DNA of 64,000 nt from positions 186,001-250,000 of the forward strand of contig NZ_CAMKWA010000001.1 of NCBI RefSeq assembly GCF_946476835.1, written 5' to 3'. Numbering within the stretch: the first letter of the stretch is position 1; each line of letters starts with the position of its first letter. A model generated the notes under the pieces. That model saw only the letters and a program-made list of their open reading frames with translations. It was not told the DNA's origin and searched no databases. A program made the position numbers and the translations under genes. The DNA comes from an uncultured Neokomagataea sp. GTDB taxonomy: Bacteria; Pseudomonadota; Alphaproteobacteria; Acetobacterales; Acetobacteraceae. Shown here one piece after another: positions 11,297 through 48,795 of this stretch.

Positions 11297-13762
11297 TTAG
11301 AAGCCTGCGCTAACTGATGCGATGGCTGAGAATGGTGCTGCGATAGCGTAGGTTGGTGTGCCAGCTTTGATGGTACGACCGTTGATACCTGTCGTTTGAA
11401 CAGCATTGCCTTGCAGGGACTTTACGAAACCAAGGTAAGCATGGTCCGTCAGGTTGCTGAAGTTTACCCGCAGGTTGGGCGCTTTGAGGAAACCGACATC
11501 TGCGAAGCGGTAGCCGATATTCGCATTCATCAGGACGTAGCCTCGGATGGACTGGTCATTCATGAATGTGGAGTACTGCTTGGATACGTACTTGACGTTA
11601 TATCCGCCGAACAGGTGACCATCATCATAATCGAGGTTGAAGGCAGCTTGGTAGCGCGGTGCTTCAGGAGCCACTTTGCCCTTGGTTGGCAGGTAGTCAG
11701 AACCACCGGTTGTGGACGCGCCAGCCAAGTTGCTACCCAAACGTGCATCCAGATATTCGAAGGAGACATAAGGACGCAGGTGGTAGAAAATTGGGCGTGT
11801 GCCGATTTCTGCATCAACGCCGTTAGATGTTTGGCCGCCACCGTTCAGGCTTGTTGTGAATGTGTTCAAGCACTGTGCATCCAAGCACTGTGTTTGGTTA
11901 AACAAGCGGTTGGTGAAGTCATAATGGAAGTACGTGATTGACCCCATAATGGTGTGGCCAGTGTAACGGTAGCCAGCTTCTTCTGAAATTGAGATTTCAG
12001 CATTCTGGTTAACGTTAGCACGGGTGGAGTAGCTGTTTGTTTTTGTGCTGTAGTTGCCTGAGTCGTACAGCGCAGCATTTGTTGGCATACGGAAGTTGGT
12101 TGCTGCTGAGACAAAGAATTGGTTCTCGGCGTCCAACTGGTAACGGATTGCCATGGTTGGCAGTGGTTGTTGCCAAGATTTGTTGATGTATGGGCCAGTG
12201 GATGTGTCTGGCAAGAAGTTGTGACCGTTACGCATGACGATGGCATATTTGAAGCCAGCGTCGATTGTTAGTTTGTTGTTCAGCAGGGACAGGGTGTCAC
12301 CGATGAACATGGTGTGGACGCGGGTTTGCGTCAGAGTATTACGGTACTGGTATGTTTGGCCATTAGACAGAACTGCATTTGGGCCAGCTGCCCAGATGTT
12401 CCAAGGGTTACCGTCCGCACCGATCCCTGTGTATGGAGAGGTTTGGCTTTGTTTGGAGTATTCGAACCAGTAGCCAACCATCAGGCGGTTTGCACCTGTT
12501 GTGAGTGTCAGCTTCGCGACGTTACCTGGGCGGTAGGTCGTGGAGGTTGAAGGGTTATACAGCAGGCCTGATGTTGTTTTACCATTCAGGGTAGCATTGA
12601 GCTTTTGTTTGCCCCACTGAACACCATTGAGGTTGGTGTTGTATGCGGACCCACCATTGCCGTCACCGTACCAGAAGTAAGGTGTTTCGGTGAGTGTGAG
12701 GTGGTCAGACAGGTGGAATGTGGAAGGGGCACTGGCATAAATGTTGGTGAATGGGTTTTGTTGCAGCTTGTAGTAAGATGCACCCTTGTCAGAAGCTGTT
12801 GGATCAAATGTTGAGTTTAGCTGCGTATTGCCGACAACATATTGATCTTTAATGCCGCGCCCGTACTTGCTCCAGCTTGAGAGGCTGGGGTTAACGTTCT
12901 TGTAGTTGTACAGGCGGTTGCCGATGATCGCGAGGGAGATACGGTTACCGTTGCCCCAGTCGTTCACGAATTTTGTTTCTGCGTGCAGCTTGCGGTTTGT
13001 GAAGTCCGTGTTGAAACGATCTTCAGAGGCGTAAGAGCCGGAGAAGTAGCCGCGTAGATTGGTGTTGCCAATCTTACCTGTGTCGAGACGTAGGAAGCCG
13101 CGCGTCGCGTTGTAAGACCCGTAGGACACATCGAAAGATCCGCCCTTCTTCATGGCAGGATCGACCATGTACATATCAACCACACCGCCGGTAGAGCTGA
13201 GGTGTGGGCTGTCCAGATCGGCTGAGCCTTGGGCCATGCTTACGGTACGTAGGTTTTCTGGGTCGGCGATTTCTTGTGAGTATACCGCATAGTTTCCGAT
13301 ATCGTTGATCGGGAACCCTTCAAGGGTGAAGCCAACTTGCGTTTGGTCCATGCCGCGTAAGCTCATGGAGCTGCCGGTCAAGCCCATTGCGTCCGTTGCG
13401 CTGACATTGGCGCCTGGGAGCAGCGAGATAAGCTGCATTGGGTCGCTGCCGGGGACTTGCTTGCTGATGAAGTCACGGGACACGGCGGAGACAGATTTTG
13501 CGCTGTCTTGCTTTGTCATCAGGCCGCCACCGACGGCATTGCGTGTGACACCATCGAAGTAGCGGTGCTGTGCGTGCACAGTCACGTGTTCTTCATTGTA
13601 GTCAGTGGGGGACGTATTGCCCATCATGGATGGAGCCATGATTTGGGTTGCTGCTTTGGCCGCAGGCTTCTTAACATCCGTATTGGATGTAGGAGCAGCG
13701 AAGGCAGGCAATGTCCCCAGTGCAATGAGGGCGGAGGTTGATAAAAGGCGTGTCAGGCGCAT
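11297..13762 (-). CDS. TonB-dependent outer-membrane receptor with PHO-box upstream
   Basis: The 821-residue protein has a signal peptide (LGTLPAFA-APT), an N-terminal extension, a plug domain (about residues 60-210, with MSLRGMDQTQVGFTLEGFPIND) and a beta-barrel. It ends in a C-terminal aromatic (SAGF), as outer-membrane barrels do. Such receptors import large or scarce ligands using TonB energy. The ligand cannot be read from sequence. The upstream gap carries several TGTCA half-sites in PhoB-like spacing, so a phosphate-containing ligand or phosphate-starvation control is a reasonable inference. No TonB or ExbBD gene lies in the window. It differs clearly from the two TBDRs at 46-51 kb. 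Confidence 0.92.
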   Translation of the reverse strand: MRLTRLLSTSALIALGTLPAFAAPTSNTDVKKPAAKAATQIMAPSMMGNTSPTDYNEEHVTVHAQHRYFDGVTRNAVGGGLMTKQDSAKSVSAVSRDFISKQVPGSDPMQLISLLPGANVSATDAMGLTGSSMSLRGMDQTQVGFTLEGFPINDIGNYAVYSQEIADPENLRTVSMAQGSADLDSPHLSSTGGVVDMYMVDPAMKKGGSFDVSYGSYNATRGFLRLDTGKIGNTNLRGYFSGSYASEDRFNTDFTNRKLHAETKFVNDWGNGNRISLAIIGNRLYNYKNVNPSLSSWSKYGRGIKDQYVVGNTQLNSTFDPTASDKGASYYKLQQNPFTNIYASAPSTFHLSDHLTLTETPYFWYGDGNGGSAYNTNLNGVQWGKQKLNATLNGKTTSGLLYNPSTSTTYRPGNVAKLTLTTGANRLMVGYWFEYSKQSQTSPYTGIGADGNPWNIWAAGPNAVLSNGQTYQYRNTLTQTRVHTMFIGDTLSLLNNKLTIDAGFKYAIVMRNGHNFLPDTSTGPYINKSWQQPLPTMAIRYQLDAENQFFVSAATNFRMPTNAALYDSGNYSTKTNSYSTRANVNQNAEISISEEAGYRYTGHTIMGSITYFHYDFTNRLFNQTQCLDAQCLNTFTTSLNGGGQTSNGVDAEIGTRPIFYHLRPYVSFEYLDARLGSNLAGASTTGGSDYLPTKGKVAPEAPRYQAAFNLDYDDGHLFGGYNVKYVSKQYSTFMNDQSIRGYVLMNANIGYRFADVGFLKAPNLRVNFSNLTDHAYLGFVKSLQGNAVQTTGINGRTIKAGTPTYAIAAPFSAIASVSAGF

Positions 13763-13937
13763 GAGCTAGCGTGATCTTTCTCGTTTCCGATTAGGAAGGT
13801 CGAGATGTCCGAAACCATGCTTTTTAATGTGGAGCAATACTTCTTGCGTTGACAAGAAATGACATCTTTTTTTCGTGATAAATCTGCCACGGATATTGTG
13901 GTTACGGGGTGTTTTTCCGCAGAAAGTGACAGTTTAT

Positions 13938-13955
13938 GTGACAGTAAGATGACAT
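13938..13955 (-). promoter_or_regulatory. PHO-box-like direct repeat upstream of TBDR
   Basis: On the minus strand the sequence ATGTCAT-CTTA-CTGTCAC matches the 7-4-7 PhoB box layout (CTGTCAT, 4 nt, CTGTCAY). A third repeat, CTGTCAC, follows 5 nt later at 13926-13932. Another pair, TGTCAT and TGTCAA with a 10-bp period, lies at 13850-13865. All five TGTCA units point toward the TBDR start, which lies about 175 bp downstream of the box. PhoB itself is not in the window, so binding is an inference. Confidence 0.55.
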
Positions 13956-13982: not shown

Positions 13983-14744
13983 TTAAGAGAGGTGAACCCT
14001 CAACGCTTCATCTTTTGCGTAGAGTGCGCGGATTCGGTGGGTTTGTTCTTGCGTCACTTGCAAGGTGTGAGCGTTTTTATTGAGATGAGGGATAGAACAT
14101 TTTTTTAATTGCGGGATATGCTGAGGCAGGTTGTTGATTTCTGCCATAGAGAAGAGTTTTGAGACGGCCAGCTTGCCCTGGCGGTTACACAAATACCAAT
14201 GTTGTGGACGGAAGATGTGATCGAGGGCGTAAGGGGAGGATGTATTCTCCACGAGGGCGATGGCATCATCTAGAGTGTGTAATGTGCGGTAGTGTGCATT
14301 GACAGATGGGTGCATAAGGACACGTTTCGTACCGCCACGACGTGCAAAAGACCAAGCTGATACAAAGCGTTCTACGGGATCACGCCAAATAGCAAAACTG
14401 GGCAGAATACGGACCATATCGGGTGCGACATGTTGGTAATAGCGAATGCTCTCATGCATCATGAGTCCGCCATAAAGCTGGTCACAAACAGAGGTGCCCC
14501 CGTTTTTCGGAACATGAATAAAGAGAACGCCGGATTTTAGAATGGTTTCGAGGCGGCGTGTGCGCTTCTGTCCGCAGGGTAAGGGAATTTTGAGGTCAGC
14601 GGCGCGTTCATGAATATCATTGAACTGCTGTACTCTAAAAATACCCCCTAATAGCCGGTGGGCCCAATCATCTTGGGTCGGGCAGGGGAGTGTTGGGGAA
14701 AGGGCGGCCGTATCTTGAAGGGTTAAAGTCGCATTTGAGTTCAT
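13983..14744 (-). CDS. Sulfotransferase family protein (PAPS-dependent type)
   Basis: The 253-residue protein has the two nucleotide-binding signatures of the sulfotransferase-2 type fold. FIHVPKNGGTSV (about residues 75-86) is the 5'-phosphosulfate loop and AIWRDPVERFVSAW (about 117-130) is the 3'-phosphate site. Members transfer sulfate from PAPS to carbohydrates. No signal peptide or membrane anchor is seen, so it would act in the cytoplasm, perhaps on a precursor of a surface glycan. It stands alone, transcribed toward the TBDR, and a 10-bp inverted repeat lies 34 bp upstream of its start. The acceptor is unknown. Confidence 0.75.
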   Translation of the reverse strand: MNSNATLTLQDTAALSPTLPCPTQDDWAHRLLGGIFRVQQFNDIHERAADLKIPLPCGQKRTRRLETILKSGVLFIHVPKNGGTSVCDQLYGGLMMHESIRYYQHVAPDMVRILPSFAIWRDPVERFVSAWSFARRGGTKRVLMHPSVNAHYRTLHTLDDAIALVENTSSPYALDHIFRPQHWYLCNRQGKLAVSKLFSMAEINNLPQHIPQLKKCSIPHLNKNAHTLQVTQEQTHRIRALYAKDEALRVHLS

Positions 14745-46095: not shown

Positions 46096-46398
46096 GTGTC
46101 TCGTAGCATCAGGAGGAGTGAGCAGAGGCTGAGTAAACGATGCAGTTACCTTATCCCGTCAGGATAACAGGCAAATCTTTCATTCTGAAAGTTTTATATG
46201 CGGTATGGTGTGTGTTATAATGGCAACGTGAGACTTTAAAACAACAATCGGTGCATGTCATTGAAATGTCATTCGTTTTAATGACGGGTTTCGCCTCAAA
46301 TTAGGAACCGTAAAAGGGGCCGCCCTCTTTTGGTTCGAAGCCTTGATAGTGCAGGGCAACTTTACTTGGAAATATGTGATCAGGAGCCCGGAAAAAAC
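46096..46398 (+). other. 303-bp regulatory gap upstream of the tandem TBDRs
   Basis: No credible ORF lies here. From left to right I see an extended -10-like TGTTATAAT at 46213-46221, a PHO-box-like repeat at 46255-46272 and a strong hairpin at 46305-46336 (GAACC-gt-AAAAGGGG / CCTCTTTT-GGTTC). A ribosome-binding region (GGAAAAAAC) precedes the GTG at 46399. If transcription starts near 46228, the leader is about 170 nt. Confidence 0.5.
46255..46272 (+). promoter_or_regulatory. PHO-box-like direct repeat upstream of the tandem TBDRs
   Basis: ATGTCAT-TGAA-ATGTCAT is an exact 7-nt direct repeat with an 11-bp period, matching the PhoB box layout with one mismatch per half-site (A for C at position 1). 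It points toward the TBDR at 46399, 126 bp downstream. No good -10 lies 10 bp after it, so its mode of action is unclear. Confidence 0.55.
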
Positions 46399-48795
46399 GT
46401 GCGATTGAAACAGTGTCTTTTGTCTTCCGTTGCGTTGTTGGCGATGCCGTGTGTGGCTTCTGCTGCGGTGAAGCAGAATGTTGCTCATAAAGCGGGTCAT
46501 CAAGCCGTTCCTGTTCATGCGTCTAAGCCCGTTAATACGGTGGAAAACGCACATACAGTGGTGCGCCATGCGCATGCATTGAATGCAACGAGTGAAGAGA
46601 GCGTTTCAGTCGTCGGGCGGACACGTACGGGGCAGGACGCAGAGCAATCTGTCTCTAAGGCTGTGATGCGCCAATTTGTGCCGGGGACGAGCCCATACCG
46701 GATGTTGAGCCGTGACGCGGGTGTGAATTTCACCTCCACGGATCCATTCGGCATCGATAGTTTTGGTGCGAATCTTTATGTGCGTGGGTTCTTCATGAAC
46801 CAAATGGGTGTGACGGTTGATGGCGTTCCATTGAACGATCAGACCTATCAGTCGGTGAATGGATTGAGCCTCGCTTCGGCGATTATCCCAGACGATATGC
46901 AGTCTTTGCGTATGTCTCAGGGGGCGGGGTCTGTTGAGTTGCCTTCCACCAATACGCTGGGCGGCACGGTTCAGGTGACGTCGAGTGATCCGAGTGATCG
47001 GCGCGGTGGAAAGATCAGCCAGTCTTTCGGGAGCTATGATTCGTACCGCACTTATGTCCGGCTGGATTCGGGTAAGCTGAATTCGAGCGGGACCAAGTTC
47101 TTCACGTCCTATGCGCGTACGGATGAAGGTATGTGGATGGGGGGTGGTAAAGATCAGTTTATGCAGCAGGTTGATGCTAAGTTGGTGCAGCCGATTGGTG
47201 CACAAAGCCGTGTGTCTGCCTTCTTCAACTGGTCGGGCCTGACGCAGTGGAATTATCCGGACACATCGGTTGGCATTTTGCAGCAAGATGGCTGGCGGAC
47301 GCCAAACCTGTATCCGAATTATGCTCTGGCTTATAATATCGCGAATGGCGGAGCCGTTCCGGCGGGTTATGCTGGTGTGCCGGGTATTCCGGGCTCACAG
47401 ATTGCGCGTTATGATGGCGGGCAAGCAGAGACCAATTATATGGGCGGTCTGCATTTTGACTTGGCTTTATCTGATGCGTTGACGTGGAACACAACGCTCT
47501 ACGGTCATAGCCAGACAGGTTATTATAGCTACACGGATAATACGACACCGTCTCCGGGAACGGGTGCACCGCTCTCTGAAATTGTATGGCAGAATCGTCA
47601 AGAGCGTTATGGCTTGGACACGTCATTGCGTTACCGGATTGGCCGTCATACGCTGGAAGGTGGCGTGTGGTATGAGAATAATAACCAAGCTGCGGGGCTG
47701 TTCAGTTATAATGAACCTGCTTTAGGGCAAGGAACGCCATTGCAGGCTGTTGGCCCATATGATGTTTATGGCCCCGCTTTTCAGCAGGGTTATGGGTTCC
47801 AGTGGAACACCAATGTGGTGCAAACCCATTTGCAGGATAGTATTCGCCTAGCGCAGGGTCTTGTTCTTCATGCGGGCTTTAAGTCCATGGTAGCGACGAC
47901 ATCTGGTGGGGCTAATTATAATAATCAGAGCTATACGGACGCTACGGCATTGCCCAATGGGTCATTGACGGCTTCTGACGCGTTCTTGCCACATGTGAAC
48001 TTGGATTGGCATGTGAACCGTCATCATGAGTTTTATGTCGATGTGGCCGAGAATATGCGGGCGTATGAGGTGTCCGCTTATGGTGTGGCTAATTCGGTTT
48101 ACTCGGTACAGGATCAAGATACGTTTTTGGCGCAACGTAAGGACCTGAAGCCTTCTAAGGCTTGGGTTTATTTGGGTGGCTATCGCTATACGTCTTCATT
48201 CCTGCAGGCGAATGCGACGGTGTATCATGCGAAGCTGTTGCATCCGGTTTTGGCTGCAGCTGTGGGGTCTTTAACGAACCCTATTTCGCAAGTGATTGAT
48301 TTTGGTAAGGTATCCATGACCGGTGCAACCGGTGATGTAGCGTTAACGCCACTGCCGGGGCTGACGATTGATAATAATATTTCCTACAATAAAGGAACTT
48401 ATGATCGGGATGTTCAGACCACGGGTGGCTACTACGCGTTAGCAGGTAAGAAGATCGTTAATTATCCGGCATGGATGTACAAGGCTTCGGTTTCTTATGC
48501 TTGGCATGGAGCAATGGCGCATTTTGATGCGAATTATCTGGGCCGACGCTATTATAGCTTTATGAATGATACGTCCATTGGGGGGTATTGGCTGGCGAAT
48601 GCTGGTTTGGATTATCGCTTTGGCAATGTGAGTGTGCTGCGTGATGTAACAGCAAGCTTTAACGTTTATAACCTGTTTAACACCAAGTACATCGCAACGA
48701 TGGGTGAGAATGATAACCCTGCAACAGGTGATTATCAGTCGATGGAACGTGGTGCTGTACGTCAGTTTTACGGTACGATCAGCGCTGGTTTTTAA
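46399..48795 (+). CDS. TonB-dependent outer-membrane receptor (first of tandem pair)
   Basis: I place the start at the GTG 46399, giving 798 residues and a clean signal peptide (LSSVALLAMPCVASA); the track start at 46330 has a poor N-terminus. The plug carries LYVRGFFMNQMGVTVDGVPL and MSQGAGSVELPSTNTLGG, and the barrel ends in FYGTISAGF. The ligand is unknown. It is clearly paralogous to the next gene (shared SQGAG, TLGG, SSDP and MRAY motifs in register). A PHO-box-like repeat lies upstream. Confidence 0.92.
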   Translation: MRLKQCLLSSVALLAMPCVASAAVKQNVAHKAGHQAVPVHASKPVNTVENAHTVVRHAHALNATSEESVSVVGRTRTGQDAEQSVSKAVMRQFVPGTSPYRMLSRDAGVNFTSTDPFGIDSFGANLYVRGFFMNQMGVTVDGVPLNDQTYQSVNGLSLASAIIPDDMQSLRMSQGAGSVELPSTNTLGGTVQVTSSDPSDRRGGKISQSFGSYDSYRTYVRLDSGKLNSSGTKFFTSYARTDEGMWMGGGKDQFMQQVDAKLVQPIGAQSRVSAFFNWSGLTQWNYPDTSVGILQQDGWRTPNLYPNYALAYNIANGGAVPAGYAGVPGIPGSQIARYDGGQAETNYMGGLHFDLALSDALTWNTTLYGHSQTGYYSYTDNTTPSPGTGAPLSEIVWQNRQERYGLDTSLRYRIGRHTLEGGVWYENNNQAAGLFSYNEPALGQGTPLQAVGPYDVYGPAFQQGYGFQWNTNVVQTHLQDSIRLAQGLVLHAGFKSMVATTSGGANYNNQSYTDATALPNGSLTASDAFLPHVNLDWHVNRHHEFYVDVAENMRAYEVSAYGVANSVYSVQDQDTFLAQRKDLKPSKAWVYLGGYRYTSSFLQANATVYHAKLLHPVLAAAVGSLTNPISQVIDFGKVSMTGATGDVALTPLPGLTIDNNISYNKGTYDRDVQTTGGYYALAGKKIVNYPAWMYKASVSYAWHGAMAHFDANYLGRRYYSFMNDTSIGGYWLANAGLDYRFGNVSVLRDVTASFNVYNLFNTKYIATMGENDNPATGDYQSMERGAVRQFYGTISAGF

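Follow-up and report, generated by a model that had tools for sequence, protein, structure and literature searches.

The question raised by this locus is whether five TGTCA units lying in front of a gene for a TonB-dependent receptor (TBDR) form a switch that places the receptor under phosphate-starvation control, as the initial annotation of this DNA had proposed. A PHO box is made of two 7-nt direct repeats of the CTGTCAT type with 4-nt spacers, giving an 11-nt unit, and phosphorylated PhoB (PhoB~P) binds to such units in tandem, bringing in RNA polymerase (PMC4415409). The window, that is the whole stretch of 64,000 nucleotides analysed (C1:186001-250000), belongs to a Neokomagataea genome of 2.44 Mb in 33 contigs, and its relevant features are given in Table 1. 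The TGTCA units are found on the minus strand at 13850, 13860, 13927, 13939 and 13950, all five in the same orientation and within about 106 bp as first described. They are contained in the 220-bp gap that separates the stop of the sulfotransferase-like gene (13983) from the ATG of the TBDR (13762), and all of them do point to this receptor. The spacings between consecutive units are 10, 67, 12 and 11 bp. Read toward the TBDR, a distal group (ATGTCAT-CTTA-CTGTCAC-ATAAA-CTGTCAC) precedes a proximal one (ATGTCAT-TTC-TTGTCAA); the distal spacings of 12 and 11 bp account for the three units that had been noticed at 11-12 bp, and the 7-4-7 arrangement attributed to one pair is exact at 13938-13955.

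Table 1. Position of the genes and of the observed or predicted sites in the window
Feature	Position	Strand	Remarks
TBDR, 821 aa, predicted controlled gene	11297..13762	-	Pfam PF00593 2.2e-26, PF07715 1.8e-12
Proximal direct repeat ATGTCAT-TTC-TTGTCAA, 10-bp period	13849..13865	-	no standard PHO box
Third distal unit CTGTCAC, 12 bp from the second	13926..13932	-	possible extra half-site
Distal predicted PHO box ATGTCAT-CTTA-CTGTCAC, 7-4-7, 11-bp period	13938..13955	-	16.05 bits, matrix rank 1
Sulfotransferase-2-like gene upstream of the TBDR	13983..14744	- (strand of the TBDR)	PF03567 9.1e-6
Second predicted PHO box ATGTCAT-TGAA-ATGTCAT, before another TBDR	46255..46272	+	13.76 bits, window rank 2
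TBDR following the second predicted PHO box	46399..48795	+	start 46399 proposed; ORF caller begins at TTG 46330

The pentamer TGTCA is not rare, with 100 occurrences in the window. As 122.8 would be expected there is no overall enrichment, and the clustering is therefore local. Dinucleotide shuffles of the window never returned a five-unit cluster (0/300, the largest having 4 units) and neither did shuffles of the intergenic gap (0/2000), in agreement with the earlier statement that such phasing is unlikely by chance. A fortuitous grouping of a frequent pentamer that regulates nothing would be in keeping with the frequency of TGTCA and with the fall of the cluster size from 5 to 4, 3 and 2 in relatives. 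Nevertheless this explanation is highly improbable given the shuffle tests, the first rank of the distal pair under an independently trained matrix and the conservation of its position in orthologues, both of which are described below. The pattern TGTCAN{5,7}TGTCA by itself is unspecific, since it has 17 matches in the genome, many of them within coding sequence.

The PHO matrix was derived from 26 distinct 18-mers taken from pstS promoters and divergent porin promoters in relatives of the same genus, pstS being taken from this genome (contig C9) as well as from the relatives, and TBDR sequences were excluded from the training in order to avoid circularity. Across the GTDB genus, the pstS promoters of 25 genomes read TGTCA(T/C)(G/A)AAA(C/G)TATCA(T/C) with an 11-bp period, and the divergent porin-like gene has 11-bp TGTCAT-type repeats in most of the 25. 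The initial annotation had suggested scoring with a PhoB matrix; run over the window with this independent one, the check placed ATGTCATCTTACTGTCAC (13938-13955) first among 127,966 positions, with 16.05 bits. The genome as a whole was covered by pattern searches, and selected stretches of it, some 380 kb counted with their overlaps, were scanned with the matrix; in these a score of more than 16 bits was reached only at pstS, at phospholipase C and at 13938-13955. Moreover, only three of the 43 TBDR upstream regions of this genome exceed 10 bits, and one of these (C8) was given little weight because it falls within the upstream coding sequence. The distal pair has the 7-4-7 layout, the 11-nt period and the CTGTCAT-like halves of a PHO box, and it agrees with the boxes of undisputed Pho genes of the same lineage. 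It is situated far from the ATG of the TBDR, some 175-193 bp away, and a clear -10 could not be established. The third distal unit is degraded in relatives (CTATCTC in N. anthophila and CTCCCTA in N. thailandica).

The proximal pair departs from the 11-bp period, having a period of 10 bp, a score of -13.45 bits in the 11-bp register and rank 30 in the 7-3-7 register. A single PHO array comprising all five units was consequently rejected on the grounds of that spacing and score. The five units are heterogeneous, only the 11-bp pair matching the organism's own PHO box, and to call all five PhoB-like is an overstatement, as the proximal pair is no standard PHO box.

The genome has the means for such a control, PhoB/PhoR and Pst both being encoded: contig C1 carries pstCAB-phoU-phoB-phoR intact, and contig C9 has pstS together with the divergent porin-like gene. 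The phoB gene is the best match to TIGR02154 with 288.7 bits, slightly under the curated 296.2. The phospholipase C gene lies away from TBDR 13762, and a predicted PHO box of 17.1 bits (C5:41985-42001; L197 2936, minus strand) stands between it and a divergent gene that by inspection looks like a PiT-type phosphate permease. No strong box was found upstream of the S1/P1 nuclease and PAP2 genes of this genome. The second best site of the window precedes another TBDR, and its GTGTCATTGAAACATCAT-type box is kept upstream of the orthologues in 14 of 15 genomes; judged from these sequences, the receptor at 46399 seems a cleaner case than TBDR 13762 and is named here as a candidate for the same regulon. 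Elsewhere in the genome (L117, C17:8001-28000) genes for a pair of PstS-like binding proteins and for two TBDRs are clustered with an OmpR-type regulator gene and a sensor-like gene; this group has no strong PHO boxes and adjoins what is by inspection a KdpDE-like pair.

TBDR 13762 shares 92% identity with a receptor of Neokomagataea anthophila. The N-terminal parts of the TBDRs from the genera compared gave TBDR 13762 as their best match among 43 of the TBDRs of this genome, and for this reason these receptors are probably its orthologues. The distal box keeps its position, -190 to -193, in three Neokomagataea and in Gluconobacter clades A and B, where the clade B version is TGTCTTCCAAATGTCAC. 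It is weak (4.4-5.4 bits) in some members of clade A, and at locus L071 the best-scoring site is found elsewhere. In Asaia, boxes of the TCGTCATCAAACTTTCAT type stand at -101 to -104 at six loci, the Zymomonas orthologue has tandem boxes of 13.9 and 11.6 bits at -101, and the first gene of the Zymomonas cluster is preceded by a box of 14.4 bits. In A. musti and A. fallax the boxes are at -185 and -178, respectively. No convincing box was found before the orthologues of Gluconobacter paralogue clade C, of Gluconacetobacter or of the A. tropicalis group, in the last of these despite phospholipase/nuclease neighbours. Conservation before orthologous receptors, which had been put forward as a check, was therefore seen in Neokomagataea, most Gluconobacter (clades A and B), Asaia, Zymomonas and A. 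musti/A. fallax, and did not extend to the three groups just mentioned. TBDR 13762 very probably carries a real and conserved phosphate-starvation switch in the form of this predicted PHO box.

The proximal repeat has its own pattern of conservation. Its first half is kept in Neokomagataea and Gluconobacter, paralogue clade C included, and its second half is variable, being TGTGA in several clade A species. A similar 10-bp repeat, TGTCATATTTTGTCA, occurs before another TBDR on contig C3 (L121 8698-8712). The sites could thus belong to another regulator of the OmpR/PhoB family, acting mainly at the proximal pair, in which case the TBDR would serve another nutrient or a stress response. About 12 full-length regulators of this type are encoded in the genome, the proximal element persists even in the clade C orthologues that have no distal box, and a 10-bp repeat also stands before the TBDR on C3. 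However, the distal box fits the matrix of the pst regulon with its 11-bp period and the orthologues adjoin phosphorus-scavenging enzymes, and we regard this explanation as improbable.

Dual control is also to be considered, with PhoB using the distal box while the proximal repeat serves a second regulator or a basal promoter, phosphate being only one of two inputs. This is compatible with control by PhoB and overlaps with it. In Neokomagataea and Gluconobacter some 80 bp separate the two blocks, each of which is conserved on its own, and the proximal repeat sits where Asaia and Zymomonas carry their PHO box, so that it may be a diverged PHO box. The variable second half of the repeat argues against this reading, and dual control seems to us possible but rather doubtful.

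What the receptor transports is suggested by the surroundings of its orthologues. In Zymomonas a calcineurin-like phosphoesterase, a PAP2 phosphatase, the TBDR orthologue and an S1/P1 nuclease follow each other in this order on the same strand. The TBDR of A. tropicalis, A. indonesiensis, A. cibinongensis, A. senegalensis and A. farinalis has a divergent S1/P1 nuclease gene on one side and a phospholipase C gene on the other. The neighbour is phospholipase C in A. orientalis; for A. musti and A. fallax it is an S1/P1 nuclease. No phosphate genes were found among the neighbours of TBDR 13762 in its own genome. The guess of a phosphate-ester substrate made in the initial annotation gains support from the phospholipase C, S1/P1 nuclease, PAP2 and calcineurin-like phosphatase genes beside the orthologues.

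The structure of the protein is less specific as to substrate. Both the plug (PF07715) and the outer-membrane beta-barrel (PF00593) are above the Pfam cut-off, and the model and the fold search agree with them. The AlphaFold2 model (mean pLDDT 83.0, pTM 0.84) is to all appearances that of an ordinary TBDR. Its nearest solved fold is PqqU/YncD (9c4o, TM 0.85 by target, 15% identity), and further fold matches include many siderophore receptors at about 15% identity. Single-sequence searching found no relative in the PDB, and a profile search gave weak matches to siderophore and heme receptors; in view of these results the assignment of a substrate by homology was dropped. As modelled, the fold points to no organophosphate substrate and the match to PqqU fixes no substrate. 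The genome, of only 2.44 Mb, yields 46 matches to TonB-dependent receptors.

The fold and profile matches could be taken to indicate a PhoB-induced importer of iron, of a metal complex or of a cofactor such as PQQ, needed indirectly in phosphate starvation. Such an importer would share its regulation with a phosphorus-scavenging receptor and differ in substrate. PqqU as the best fold, the many siderophore receptors (all at about 15% identity) and the siderophore and heme profiles are consistent with it. Against it stands the repeated linkage of the orthologues to phospholipase C, nuclease and phosphatases, and we consider it on the whole unlikely.

We therefore favour, with considerable confidence, the explanation that 13938-13955 is a PHO box and that TBDR 13762 is a PhoB-activated, phosphorus-scavenging receptor. 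When phosphate is scarce PhoR would phosphorylate PhoB, and PhoB~P would bind 13938-13955 as a tandem dimer and recruit RNA polymerase, with the result that the monocistronic TBDR gene would be transcribed on phosphate starvation. Using energy supplied through TonB, the receptor would then take a phosphorus-containing nutrient through the outer membrane, probably organophosphates set free where phospholipase C, nuclease or phosphatases act outside the cell. We infer PhoB binding, the induction of the TBDR and the direction of regulation from the DNA sequence, and the substrate only from the neighbours of the orthologues. The family is likely to help in scavenging phosphorus because the orthologues adjoin phospholipase and nuclease genes. 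More tentatively, and with slightly more reason for doubt than for belief, the orthologous family of acetic acid bacteria and Zymomonas may be a dedicated organophosphorus receptor, an alphaproteobacterial counterpart of the phosphate utilisation systems of Bacteroidetes. Together with phospholipase C, S1/P1 nuclease and phosphatases it would make up one module under PhoB, whose genes lie close together in Acetobacter and Zymomonas but are scattered and co-regulated through PHO boxes in Neokomagataea and Gluconobacter.

The arrangement resembles the PhoB regulon of E. coli and alphaproteobacteria in having a box before a nutrient-acquisition gene, and phoB-phoR and pst in the genome. It differs from a standard PHO box in the additional TGTCA units nearby that do not follow the 11-bp period, in the great distance upstream and in being a predicted site. 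In Caulobacter crescentus PhoB controls various TBDRs that are thought to import alternative phosphate donors (PMC11208175). The likeness is one of regulon membership, TBDRs being part of an alphaproteobacterial PhoB regulon, although control was demonstrated there by transcriptomics whereas for TBDR 13762 it is predicted from sequence. In Flavobacterium, PusCD and the Pi-responsive TBDTs of low phosphate are found beside phosphodiesterases, phosphatases or phytase (PMC8115612). These are SusCD-type complexes of Bacteroidetes with a SusD lipoprotein, whereas the present TBDRs are single, and the linkage of the present family to phosphorus enzymes exists in Acetobacter and Zymomonas but not in the genome studied here. 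PqqU/YncD, FecA and FhuA share the plug-and-barrel fold with TBDR 13762; for PqqU/YncD and the siderophore TBDRs the identity is about 15% and the likeness is of fold only.

PhoB control of TBDRs and phosphate-responsive TBDTs beside phosphatases are thus already known kinds. In the open-licence literature searched we found neither a report of phosphate regulation of these receptors, of the family or of its enzyme linkage in acetic acid bacteria, nor a link between this receptor family and a PHO-box switch. Iron receptor would be the default annotation for most TBDRs of acetic acid bacteria, and the conserved PHO box together with the phosphorus-enzyme neighbours suggests for all orthologues of this family a function that can be tested. 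The finding is also relevant to phosphate control in Gluconobacter used industrially, in which disruption of phoB and disruption of a TBDR gene, which may differ from 13762, each altered bioleaching (PMC12041372).

The leader of the TBDR presents some further features. A hairpin in it is strong in some Gluconobacter (z -4.99 in G. cerinus, L028). A conserved RNA structure of the 5'UTR was rejected, as consensus pairs are absent across 15 sequences and there is no Rfam match. The block CGAGAAAGA, immediately 5' of the TBDR ATG (13763-13830, minus strand), is invariant in all 16 aligned sequences (16/16).
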